From: Burkholderia sp. USMB20
GTDB taxonomy: Bacteria > Pseudomonadota > Gammaproteobacteria > Burkholderiales > Burkholderiaceae
Reading direction: 5' to 3'
Assembly: GCF_000949135.2 (NCBI RefSeq)
Contig: NZ_JTAN02000003.1
Coordinates: forward strand, 1 to 64,000
Length of the DNA stretch: 64,000 bases
The position numbers were made by a program, and so were the translations under genes. The notes beneath the pieces were generated by a model, which had not been told where the DNA came from, made no database searches, and was given only the letters and a program-made list of their open reading frames with translations. Of the stretch, positions 40,574 through 45,926 are shown piece by piece (the first letter of the stretch is position 1; every line of letters starts with the position of its first letter).

Positions 40574-42592
40574 ATGAGCGACACCATCCACGCATGGCTC
40601 GGGGCGATCGGCGCGCATCCGGCGCTCGTGCTGGCGATCGTGTTCGCCGCCGCCTGTGCCGAGGCGATTGCGCTGATCGGCACCGTCGTGCCGGCCGGTG
40701 CCGTGCTGTTCGCGGCCGGCACGCTGATCGGCGCGGGCGCGCTCGACGGCTGGACGACGATCGGCGTCGCGGCCGCCGGCGCGATTCTCGGCGACGGGAT
40801 CAGTTACGAGCTCGGACGCCGCTACCGCGGCGCGATTCGAAACGGGTGGGTCCGGCTGGGCTACGCGGATGCCTATGCGCGCGGCGAGCAGTTCGTGCTG
40901 CGCCACGGGACGAAGAGCATCGTGCTCGCGCGTTTCCTGGCGCCGGTGCGCGCGGTCGTGCCGGTCGTGGTCGGCTGCGCGACGCTGCCGCGCCGGTCGT
41001 TCTACCCGGTCAACGTCGTGTCGGCGCTGATCTGGGCGCCCGTGCACGTCGTGCCGGGCATCCTGTTCGGCGCGTCGGCGGTGCTGGCCGCCGCGATCAG
41101 CGTGCGGGTCGCCGCGATCCTGCTGGTGATCGCCGCGCTGGTCGCGCTCGTGTGGATCGGCGTGCGCGTCGCGCTGCGGCGCGGCTGGCCGTTGCTGCGC
41201 CGCGCGGCCGGCGCGGCCGTGCATGCATGCGCGCGCCGCTGGCCACGCGTCGGCGGCTGGCTGCACGACGCGATCGAGAAGGGGCGCCGCCTGCCAGGCG
41301 TGGTGCCCGTCTTCGCGCTGCTGTTCGTCGGCTGCGTGTGGCTGCTTGCCGGCATCGTGCGGGAGGTCGTCGCGAACGATTCGCTGATGCACGCCGACAT
41401 CATGGTGTATGCGTTCCTGCAGGACCTGCGCACGCCGCCGGTGGATGCCGCGATGCGCGCGCTCGCGGTGCTGCACGGACACGATACGGGGCTGATCGTC
41501 GCGGCCGCGTTCCTGGTCTGGCTGATGATTCATCGCTGCTGGGTGACGTCCGCGTGGTGGCTCGCGACGGTCGGCATCGCGGTCGTGCTCGTGCCGGCGT
41601 TCGGCACCGGCGTGCCCGGCATGACGCCCGCGAGCTTGCCGCCCGGCGCGCCGCACGTGCCGCTGCCCGACGCCGACGCGGCGTTCGCGATGCTCGCGAG
41701 CAGCGGCATCGGCTGGGTGATCACACGCGACCGGCCGGCGCTGTGGCGCATTCCGGTCGTGACCGCGGTCGTGTTGTGGATCGTGCTCGGCGGCTTCGCG
41801 CGGCTTTACGTCGGCGATACGTGGCTGTCGGGTCTGCTCGGCGGCTGGAGCCTCGGGCTCGCGTGGTTCGCGGTGCTGGCGGGCGCCTATGCGTACTGGC
41901 AGGTGCGCGAGCATGTGCAGCCGCGGGGCGCGCTCGTCGCGGTGCTCGTCGTGCTCGCGACGGCCGGCGTCTGGACCGTGCCCGCGCAATGGCAGCTCGA
42001 TCGCGCGGCGCGTCCGCACGTGGGCGACGTCGTCGCGATGACCGTCGATCAATGGATGCGCGGCGGGTGGCAGCGCGTGCCGACGCGGCGCACCGAGATC
42101 GGCGGCGATCGCGAGGAATATCTGCCGTTGCAATGGTGCGCGACGTCGGACACGCTCGATCGCCATCTTTCGCTGGCCGGCTGGCAGCGCGCGACGTCGT
42201 GGTCGGCAGGCACCGCGCTGCGGTGGCTGCTGCCGCAGGGGCCGGCCGATGCGCTGCCCGTGCTGCCGCGCTATACGCATGGCGAAAGTACGCGCCGCGT
42301 GTTCGTGCGTGTCGATCCGGCCCGTCCGGACAGCCGCCTCGTGCTGCGGCTGTGGCGTTATCCGTACGCGCTGCAGGATGCGCTCGGCACGCGGCCGCTG
42401 TGGTACGGCGCGCTGTATCGCGAGACGCTGCATCGGCCCGCACGGCTGATGACGGTCGTGCGCACGACGACGATCGACGATGCGGCGACGATCGCGCAGG
42501 CGCTGCAGGTCGAGCCGACGCTCGCGCGGCCGCCGGCGGGGACGAGTGGGGCGCCGGCCGCGGTGCTGCTCGTGTGGATGGTGCAGCCTTGA
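40574..42592 (+). CDS. DedA-PAP2-LssY three-part membrane fusion protein with degenerate phosphatase motifs
   Basis: A 672-residue membrane protein. Residues 1-200 are a DedA/SNARE-associated domain (EAIALIGTVVPAGAVLFAAG, GDGISYELGRRYRG, RFLAPVRAVVPVVVG). Residues about 235-450 are a PAP2-like phosphatase region. Residues about 480-670 match the LssY C-terminal domain (LPLQWCATSDTLDRHLSLAGWQ). The PAP2 catalytic motifs look lost: where PSGH is expected there is PDADAAF, and the SR-xxxxx-H-xxx-D motif reads ARLYVGDTWLSG, without the His and Asp. It may be a lipid transport or regulatory protein instead of a phosphatase. The start follows the small zincin gene. Confidence 0.82.
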   Translation: MSDTIHAWLGAIGAHPALVLAIVFAAACAEAIALIGTVVPAGAVLFAAGTLIGAGALDGWTTIGVAAAGAILGDGISYELGRRYRGAIRNGWVRLGYADAYARGEQFVLRHGTKSIVLARFLAPVRAVVPVVVGCATLPRRSFYPVNVVSALIWAPVHVVPGILFGASAVLAAAISVRVAAILLVIAALVALVWIGVRVALRRGWPLLRRAAGAAVHACARRWPRVGGWLHDAIEKGRRLPGVVPVFALLFVGCVWLLAGIVREVVANDSLMHADIMVYAFLQDLRTPPVDAAMRALAVLHGHDTGLIVAAAFLVWLMIHRCWVTSAWWLATVGIAVVLVPAFGTGVPGMTPASLPPGAPHVPLPDADAAFAMLASSGIGWVITRDRPALWRIPVVTAVVLWIVLGGFARLYVGDTWLSGLLGGWSLGLAWFAVLAGAYAYWQVREHVQPRGALVAVLVVLATAGVWTVPAQWQLDRAARPHVGDVVAMTVDQWMRGGWQRVPTRRTEIGGDREEYLPLQWCATSDTLDRHLSLAGWQRATSWSAGTALRWLLPQGPADALPVLPRYTHGESTRRVFVRVDPARPDSRLVLRLWRYPYALQDALGTRPLWYGALYRETLHRPARLMTVVRTTTIDDAATIAQALQVEPTLARPPAGTSGAPAAVLLVWMVQP

Positions 42593-42607: not shown

Positions 42608-42937
42608 TTATGCGTGCGACGGTTGCGCGGGGACGACGGACAGGCGCAGGCCGACCGTCTTGAGCACCGCGAGCAGGGTTTTCAGCGTCGGGTTGCCGTT
42701 GGGCGACAGCGTGCGATACAGCGATTCGCGGCTGATGCCGGCGTCGGCCGCGACCGCGCCGAGCCCGCCATACGCTTCCGCGACCGTGCGCAGCGCGAGC
42801 AGCGCGGCCGCGCGGTTGTCGGGGTCGTCGAGCGATTCCATCGCGACGCGCAAATAGGCCACCGCGAGCTCGCGGTCCGCGCCGAGTTCGGCGACTTCCG
42901 CGTCGTGGTGCGATACCGCGCCTTTGAGCTTGTTCAT
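42608..42937 (-). CDS. HigA-like antitoxin (Xre-type DNA-binding)
   Basis: A 109-residue antitoxin of the addiction-module antidote family. The helix-turn-helix lies in the C-terminal half (VAADAGISRESLYRTLSPNGNPTLKTLLAVLKTVGLRLSV region). The N-terminal part contains DRELAVAYLRVAMESLDD. Its ATG overlaps the toxin stop by four bases, with the toxin first, the order typical of HigBA. It should neutralise the toxin by binding and repress the operon at the palindrome ahead of the toxin gene. Confidence 0.85.
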   Translation of the reverse strand: MNKLKGAVSHHDAEVAELGADRELAVAYLRVAMESLDDPDNRAAALLALRTVAEAYGGLGAVAADAGISRESLYRTLSPNGNPTLKTLLAVLKTVGLRLSVVPAQPSHA

Positions 42938-43266
42938 GCTTGCCTCCGTTTCCAGTCCAACCAGTGTTCCTTCGCATGCCTGATGTCGTCGGACTGGCTG
43001 TGCTTGTCGCCGCCGTACAACAGCAGCACCAGCGCACTGCCGTACCGGCCGAAGTACACGCGATAGCCGGCACCGACGTGGATGCGCAGCTCGATCACAC
43101 CTTCACCGACGGGCTCGCAATCGCCGAAGTTTCCGGTCTGCACGCGACGCAGCCGCTCGCGAATCCGCGCCTGGGCGACTTTGTCGCGCACGGCGTTCAA
43201 CCATTCGGTGAAAGGCTCGCGACCGTCGGCGCGCTGATAGCGAAGCAGTTCGAACTTGGAGAGCAT
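42934..43266 (-). CDS. RelE/HigB-like toxin (phage Gp49 type)
   Basis: A 110-residue protein of the RelE/ParE superfamily, the type that cleaves ribosome-bound mRNA. Features are REPFTEWLNAVRDKVAQARI, IRERLRRVQTGNFGDCEPVG, ELRIHVGAGYRVYFGRYGSA and LLLYGGDKHSQSDDI, which is the Gp49/HigB pattern. The antitoxin gene follows on the same strand with a four-base overlap. An 18-bp palindrome directly abuts the start codon. Confidence 0.87.
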   Translation of the reverse strand: MLSKFELLRYQRADGREPFTEWLNAVRDKVAQARIRERLRRVQTGNFGDCEPVGEGVIELRIHVGAGYRVYFGRYGSALVLLLYGGDKHSQSDDIRHAKEHWLDWKRRQA

Positions 43267-45275: not shown

Positions 45276-45333
45276 GCGTGTCTCCGGAAGCGGCGGAAGG
45301 GCAGCGGCCCTTCCGCGGGAACGGGCTGGCCGC

Positions 45334-45456
45334 TCAGACCGGCCAGAGCGCGGTGCCGAACGGCACCACGGCATCCTCGACCATCATGTCGACGGCCTCG
45401 GGGTGCGTGTCTTCCTGCATCCAGTCAAGCAATTCGATCTGCCGGGTTTCCTGCAT
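45334..45456 (-). CDS. 40-residue peptide, candidate RiPP precursor or signal peptide
   Basis: A short gene with a near-ideal ribosome binding site: AGGAG seven bases before the ATG. The peptide begins MQETRQIELLDWMQED, is strongly acidic in the first 29 residues (nine Asp/Glu against one Arg), and ends in the uncharged, hydrophobic VVPFGTALWPV. An acidic helical leader with a short hydrophobic, Trp/Pro-containing tail is the usual shape of precursors of ribosomally made, modified peptides. It has no Cys and no double-Gly. The M29-fold gene follows 58 bases downstream on the same strand, and an MFS transporter diverges upstream. I know no named family for it. Confidence 0.65.
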   Translation of the reverse strand: MQETRQIELLDWMQEDTHPEAVDMMVEDAVVPFGTALWPV

Positions 45457-45926
45457 GTCAATTCTCCTGTGGTGAACATGAGCGATTCAACATGAAAGCG
45501 CGGTAACGGGATTACCGCGGCTCATCCGATGTTTTTTGAATACCGGACGAGTGGCGTCGATATTAGTCTGATGATTTGATGAATGCAATGCATGGCGAGG
45601 TTTTTAGCCGCGGCGTGCTAAACATGCGGGTTCGCCGCATTTCGCGCGGTGAAGGCGTATGAATCCAATCGCAAAACCCGAGGATTTTTTCGAATATCGG
45701 GGCCGCAATCGATTGATTGATTCATTCAAGCGATTTTTTGAATCGCGAGTTCAATCGCGTCGATCATTTCGATTTCCGCCATTAACGAACAATGCGCGCG
45801 GTTATCGTGGACGCGAACCGGCTCCAGCGGTTTTCTGGCACCATCTGACGACCTCGCGCGCGGGCCGCAGCCGCGCGCCTGCCGCCGTCCCGGCGGCACG
45901 ATGCGAACCACGATGGAGACACCGCG
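45457..45926. other. AT-richer regulatory region between the peptide gene and the divergent MFS gene
   Basis: About 470 bases with clearly lower GC than the surroundings and no supportable gene. A perfect inverted repeat, CGCGGTAA-5-TTACCGCG, lies at 45499-45519, 43 bases before the peptide start, and is a good candidate operator or attenuator. Further right are runs such as GATTGATTGATTCATTC. A plus-strand frame from 45659 exists but lacks a ribosome binding site and turns into a shadow of the MFS gene. The MFS start has GGAG about eight bases upstream. Confidence 0.5.
45499..45519. promoter_or_regulatory. Perfect inverted repeat upstream of the 40-residue peptide gene
   Basis: Arms CGCGGTAA and TTACCGCG flank five bases. 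Placement 43 bases before the peptide ATG, inside an AT-rich divergent region, suits a repressor site for the peptide/M29 operon. The regulator is not identified; no regulator gene is adjacent. Confidence 0.55.

Follow-up and report, generated by a model that had tools for sequence, protein, structure and literature searches.

A 40-codon frame in the genome of Burkholderia sp. USMB20 raises the question whether it encodes the precursor of a ribosomally synthesized and post-translationally modified peptide (RiPP), and which of its neighbours might act on that precursor. The frame lies in the window, i.e. the 64,000-nucleotide stretch of DNA analysed here (NZ_JTAN02000003.1, positions 1-64,000), and on the minus strand, from 45456 to 45334, it translates as MQETRQIELLDWMQEDTHPEAVDMMVEDAVVPFGTALWPV followed by a stop codon. 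A sequence-only reading had noticed the frame, with AGGAG 7 nt before its ATG, and a gene for an M29-like protein 58 nt downstream; both were confirmed on the minus strand, the latter as the frame 45275-44322. The same reading had proposed a RiPP-like locus. A conserved peptide gene tied to an M29-fold enzyme stands from this proposal, whereas the major facilitator superfamily (MFS) transporter and the GNAT gene named as further parts do not. We consider it fairly probable that the peptide and the enzyme, which resembles CgnB of the crocagin pathway, form a minimal RiPP-type unit, in which the precursor is modified by one maturation enzyme.

The frame by itself proves nothing, because short frames are common in the GC-rich DNA of this region: 10 kb are overlapped by 93 frames of at least 30 amino acids. 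It is raised above chance by its conservation as a protein and by its co-occurrence with the enzyme. In all pairwise comparisons of 30 same-length type I copies from Burkholderia (the two types are described below) the proportion of non-synonymous differences (pN) was 0.028 and that of synonymous differences (pS) 0.194 (pN/pS 0.14), i.e. the changes were mostly synonymous, and 11 Photorhabdus copies behaved likewise (pN 0.021, pS 0.265). The sole exception to the AGGAG ribosome-binding site among the type I Burkholderia loci (n = 29) was L105, which has GGGAG. Judged by these comparisons, the small frame is a real gene under protein-level selection, adjoining a candidate modifying enzyme. Neither the window peptide nor the window enzyme matched a Pfam or NCBIfam family at E <= 1, so mining tools built on these models may miss the family. 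The three annotated-collection records consulted list no features at this place.

The expectation that relatives would carry a conserved short frame beside homologues of the enzyme was borne out in Burkholderia and in other genera. The enzyme was sought in 65 Burkholderia genomes by protein search and was present in 51. Two peptide searches, which contributed 48 and 2 genomes, together placed the peptide in 50 of the 51, whereas at E <= 0.1 it was found in 0 of the 14 genomes that lack the enzyme (Fisher p 2e-13, genome relatedness ignored). The one enzyme carrier left over, G058, is a draft genome of 82% completeness, in which the enzyme match covers 84 residues. A scan of named genomes yielded 54 loci, from which L128-L130 were separated as remote M29 relatives with no such peptide found there. 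The peptide lies upstream of the enzyme in 50 of the remaining 51 loci, and in L117 the sequence begins 184 nt before the match. The hosts were Burkholderia, Paraburkholderia, Candidatus Burkholderia humilis, Photorhabdus, Klebsiella sp. BIGb0407 and Enterobacterales bacterium CwR94. Moreover, a peptide-profile search was positive in 44 of 119 genomes of a further gammaproteobacterial genus, which is probably Pseudomonas as read from the flanking genes; the enzyme was downstream of the peptide in 22 of 22 flanks, 21 from this genus and one from G1094, which belongs to another family. The pair is distributed patchily across Gammaproteobacteria, in unrelated gene contexts. The Photorhabdus pair lies between a riboflavin-synthase-like gene and a gene that we take to be a cyclopropane fatty acid synthase gene, and the pair of the further genus between what, by sequence reading, are presumably an amino acid permease gene and an RluB-like gene.

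The peptides range from 37 to 56 residues in length. In an alignment of 14 diverse copies M1, W12, H18, M24, M25, P32, F33, T35 and W38 were invariant, and the mean majority fraction was 0.87 for residues 29-38 vs 0.60 for residues 2-28. This is the reverse of the conserved leader and variable tail that had been anticipated. Two branches can be told apart by the tail, which is VPFGTA[LMF]W, then mostly P, in type I and IPFAT[AS]LWA in type II; both occur in some Burkholderia, e.g. B. puraquae (L091, L126). In a structure model with the peptide tethered to the enzyme, residues 9-12 and 18-27 were helical, with ten-residue means of the predicted local distance difference test (pLDDT) of 64-71. 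The strict pairing, the fixed sequence and the helix-prone middle part would also suit a lasting protein partner of the enzyme (a subunit, an inhibitor or a pro-peptide) that never becomes a product, and no shared protease or exporter was seen among the neighbouring genes, which agrees with such a role. Conservation, however, peaks in a short hydrophobic tail that has no predicted fold and found no confident placement in the tethered model, and the hairpin described below suggests that peptide mRNA exceeds enzyme mRNA. We regard a lasting partner as unlikely.

The candidate metal ligands of the enzyme, described earlier as kept, are E181, E254, E274 or E275, H281, H293 and D295, and all seven residues were invariant in 23 of 23 aligned members. 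By comparison of their spacing with the numbering in PMC10070186, a CgnB-like ligand set is preserved. The single-copy enzymes thus keep a predicted dinuclear metal site. One enzyme match per neighbourhood was found in 15 of 15 cases, and two copies occurred in 4 of the 51 enzyme-bearing Burkholderia genomes, each pair being either split between contigs or spaced by more than 200 kb; very divergent second copies could be missed in these searches. The M29-like fold spans the whole length of the protein, which has no extra domains. It matches NicX, the M29 aminopeptidases and CgnB/CgnE, in keeping with the link to crocagin that had been drawn earlier, at 13-14% identity to CgnB/CgnE in the structural alignments; the Pfam Peptidase_M29 profile gave no match (E <= 1) though the fold is similar. 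The aminopeptidases AmpT, PepS and AmpS (2ayi, 4ics, 1zjc) share the fold and a probable dinuclear site, whereas the enzyme is 80-96 residues shorter and 12-14% identical to them.

The top fold match was NicX (7cn3; 281 residues aligned, root-mean-square deviation 5.1), a 2,5-dihydroxypyridine 5,6-dioxygenase, which acts on a small molecule and holds a mononuclear iron by a His-His-Asp set; we know of no peptide partner of NicX. The enzyme might accordingly be an ordinary M29-type aminopeptidase or a NicX-like catabolic enzyme, and the small gene unrelated to it and kept in place by operon structure. This is very improbable. The pairing persists across genera in different contexts, and NicX does not share the Glu ligands: it has His, Phe and Leu at the family positions E254, E181 and H281, respectively, which by these weak alignments indicates that the metal site is not NicX-like.

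The two genes are separated by a hairpin. Stems were called if perfect over at least 8 bp and compared with 300 dinucleotide shuffles per stretch. Such a stem was present, each at p <= 0.05, in 47 of 51 intergenic stretches (the window and 50 loci), and was missed in L119, L120, L121 and L124. The 47 stems are not independent cases, since many of the Burkholderia stretches are near-identical. The stem sequences differ by lineage, being GCGGAAGGGC in Burkholderia, AAGTAAGGGG in Photorhabdus and AAATGGCGGG in Klebsiella, which implies that the structure outlasts the sequence. Some stems, several of them type II, are followed by a T-rich stretch (L119, L124, L126, L167, L172).

A hairpin after the stop codon in most loci, in some followed by a T-rich stretch, could also belong to a nascent-chain sensor or leader peptide, whose C-terminal part would stall the ribosome in response to a metabolite, the hairpin region controlling the gene of an enzyme that acts on this metabolite. 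The best-conserved residues adjoin the stop codon, every invariant residue apart from M1 is at most 29 residues from the end, which would fit the ribosome tunnel, and the top fold match, NicX, acts on a small aromatic compound. The end of the peptide, with its Trp and Pro, we take to resemble arrest ends of the TnaC/SecM type. On the other hand, no T run follows the stem on the coding strand in Burkholderia type I and Photorhabdus, and the invariant Trp12 and His18 sit 22-28 residues from the end, whereas most arrest peptides need less. The fold group includes the peptide-binding CgnB/CgnE, and type II has tailoring-like genes. Taken together, ribosome arrest appears quite unlikely to be the function of the peptide.

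In the crocagin system of Chondromyces crocatus a short precursor, CgnA, likewise stands beside M29-fold proteins without a Pfam family, both systems have a Trp near the precursor C-terminus, and crocagin-like clusters contain a glycosyltransferase-like gene, as does the type II branch (PMC10070186, main text). According to the same text CgnB and CgnE bind the precursor and, despite the M29-like fold, showed no aminopeptidase activity; CgnB appears catalytic, and its chemistry, studied together with CgnC and CgnE, is not settled. CgnB/CgnE homologues were reported there from about 100 genomes of five groups, including Beta- and Gammaproteobacteria; most of them are single-copy and have kept the metal site intact, and RiPPER predicted putative precursors. 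That main text names neither Burkholderia nor Photorhabdus, and the present pair may be among the precursors predicted in the supplement. The crocagin clusters described in it have two CgnB/CgnE copies within 2.1 kb and a CgnC homologue, an arrangement that was not seen here, and differ in having a positively charged leader in CgnA, vs an acidic one here, and the core Ile-Tyr-Trp, vs VPFGTALWPV (PMC10070186). Each locus studied here has a single copy of the enzyme. A CgnE-type copy, whose metal site would be broken, was not seen, and a CgnC-like oxygenase was not recognised beside type I pairs. Of the conserved Tyr and Trp of the crocagin-like core, the 14 aligned peptides share the Trp, as the invariant Trp38, but have no Tyr in the tail. 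CgnD- or carbamoyltransferase-like genes were not recognised in the flanks, where no homology search was aimed at them. Conserved precursors with a fixed C-terminal core, comparable to the peptide here, are known from the pyrroloquinoline quinone (PqqA) and mycofactocin (MftA) RiPPs; a radical S-adenosylmethionine enzyme, as in these types, was not recognised beside the pair, no homology search being aimed at one.

From these observations we infer binding and modification of the peptide, an excess of precursor and a product. The small gene would encode a precursor with an acidic, helix-prone leader (residues 1-28, with the fixed Trp12, His18 and Met24-Met25) and a core within residues 29-40 (AVVPFGTALWPV). 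The CgnB-like, dinuclear-metal enzyme would recognise the leader, bind the precursor and alter its C-terminal part, probably in the region of the invariant Pro-Phe-Gly/Ala-Thr...Trp, and the intergenic hairpin would maintain more peptide mRNA than enzyme mRNA. Because most lineages showed no other shared gene, general proteases may release the product and general cell proteins export it. That the core hardly varies suggests a single conserved product common to several genera. As a tentative extension, held with limited confidence, we suggest a two-gene RiPP system with a stand-alone CgnB-like enzyme that, lacking any dedicated oxygenase, protease or exporter, would convert the nearly invariant Pro-Phe-Gly-Thr-Ala-Leu-Trp core into a single conserved, cofactor- or signal-like small molecule in a patchy set of hosts (Burkholderia, Photorhabdus and other Gammaproteobacteria).

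Several observations weigh against a RiPP-type unit. The best-conserved part of the peptide is the tail, [VI][VI]PF[GA]T[AS][LMF]W, which sets it apart from most RiPP families, and in the tethered model the tail had a pLDDT of about 38, with no docking and no confident placement. NicX, a small-molecule dioxygenase (Z 21.6), and the aminopeptidases (17.6, 16.6) scored above CgnB/CgnE, and a PDB sequence search returned no CgnB/CgnE match (profile A1, E <= 10; P0001, E <= 1). Only 9 of the 22 loci from the further genus and G1094 have the strict stem. The enzyme was rare in the phylum sample (8 of 398 genomes), as were strong peptide matches in the class sample (2 of 369 genomes), where 8 of 10 matches, at E 0.01-0.1, were counted as no evidence. 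L131 (G692:C244) has an enzyme homologue at a contig edge with no recognisable peptide, either in the locus or by genome profile; we read the preceding frame as LysR-like. A protease or exporter common to all lineages was not seen.

No paper recognised as describing the pair, and none with the core letters, was found in the literature outside supplements and most subscription papers. The present analysis adds how strictly the two genes co-occur, a core that stays fixed, the division into two branches, the hairpin and the host range. One enzyme with one fixed peptide in nature would isolate the CgnB chemistry, and one conserved product common to several genera would be worth finding.

The divergent MFS gene and the convergent GNAT gene of the window matched PF06779 (1.8e-61) and PF00583 (3.3e-15), respectively, and are laid out as previously described. 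Their proposed roles as exporter and tailoring enzyme did not hold. A tblastn search (E <= 1e-8) covered at most 6 kb of flank, and less at a few loci. Among the 29 type I Burkholderia loci it placed an MFS homologue beside 23 (missing in 6) and a GNAT homologue beside 26 (missing in 3), and it found neither beside the 22 loci L106-L127. Both were ruled out as system parts on synteny, homologues being found only beside Burkholderia type I pairs. In Photorhabdus and the further genus, however, frames that we take to be of the MFS and MATE transporter types lie a few kb off, and a presumably GNAT-like frame lies near L119. These frames do not correspond to the neighbours in the window, but they may have a role, and an unrelated exporter may thus be involved.

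In the type II branch a tetratricopeptide repeat (TPR) protein of about 470 amino acids is encoded next to the pair in 7 of 7 loci tested (L119, L121-L124, L126, L127). It gave weak GT9 matches in 3 of 3 proteins scanned (E 0.04-0.1), and against the PDB (E <= 0.1) it matched designed or consensus TPR proteins and one YfrE-like chain; the glycosyltransferase assignment comes from the weak GT9 matches and the DWRW end, which we take to be glycosyltransferase-like. The fullest set was seen in Enterobacterales bacterium CwR94 (L119, 5763-9392), where peptide, enzyme, TPR/glycosyltransferase-like protein and a 2-oxoglutarate-Fe(II) (2OG-Fe(II)) oxygenase (PF13640, 5e-5, below the Pfam cut-off) are encoded consecutively. 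The TPR protein and, once, the oxygenase would serve as tailoring enzymes of this branch. Among the loci tested, the oxygenase adjoins the pair only in L119. In Burkholderia 3 of its 4 carriers were among the 5 genomes that have type II pairs (p 0.0009, without regard to relatedness), but as it occurs in only 4 of 65 genomes it was rejected as a partner acting generally in trans. In Paraburkholderia rhizosphaerae (type I) the pair is joined by a gene for a 229-amino-acid protein that matches CADD weakly (TIGR04305, E 0.048). This protein was also rejected as a general partner, with 0 of 65 Burkholderia genomes positive in a search that had no positive control.

The features of the locus are collected in the table. 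A sigma-70 consensus scan found no site. The dyad is possibly operator-like and is partly kept in L099 and L100, where the MFS homologue was not found. The hairpin in the 5' leader was rejected as a general feature, as of the 17 upstream stretches tested only those of the window, L120 and L122 reached p <= 0.05.

Table. Features of the peptide-enzyme locus in the window
Feature	Position	Strand	Basis or remark
40-amino-acid peptide gene (candidate type I precursor with the tail VVPFGTALWPV)	45334..45456	minus	frame, ribosome-binding site, conservation, pairing
Ribosome-binding site AGGAG, 7 nt 5' of ATG	45464..45468	minus	identical in 28/29 type I Burkholderia loci
M29-fold, CgnB-like putative metal enzyme, 317 amino acids	44322..45275	minus	fold match, conserved candidate ligands
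Perfect 10-bp hairpin between peptide and enzyme genes	45293..45316	minus	stem sequence differs between lineages
Promoter-like pair TTGCAT-17-TAATAT	45560..45588	minus	similar in most of 14 aligned Burkholderia loci
Dyad TGTTTAGC-N8-GCTAAAAAC, upstream of promoter-like site	45600..45624	minus	imperfect in L099, L100, L102
Hairpin in presumed 5' leader of peptide mRNA	45499..45519	minus	p <= 0.05 in the window; not general

Some further candidates were set aside. The weakest peptide match of one search (G288, L073) lies on a contig with no enzyme match and was treated as chance, and a partial enzyme match (L136, G788) had neither GIGTN nor the peptide motif. Plasmid carriage was dismissed, only three Burkholderia replicons larger than 3 Mb being filed as plasmids. 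A DNA-level match to the Klebsiella locus was not found in E. coli. In Photorhabdus akhurstii (L125, 6001-6750) the enzyme match stops at residue 250 beside an intact peptide, and this enzyme may be truncated or frameshifted.

Elsewhere in the window, 42608-43266 encodes a small addiction-module-like pair (PF21716 antidote, 4e-14; Gp49-like, 6e-4). In 7 of the 29 type I Burkholderia loci the flanks covered include a homologue of the antidote close to the GNAT gene. The region 40574-42592 encodes a protein of 672 amino acids in which VTT and LssY_C domains were recognised and PAP2 matched weakly.
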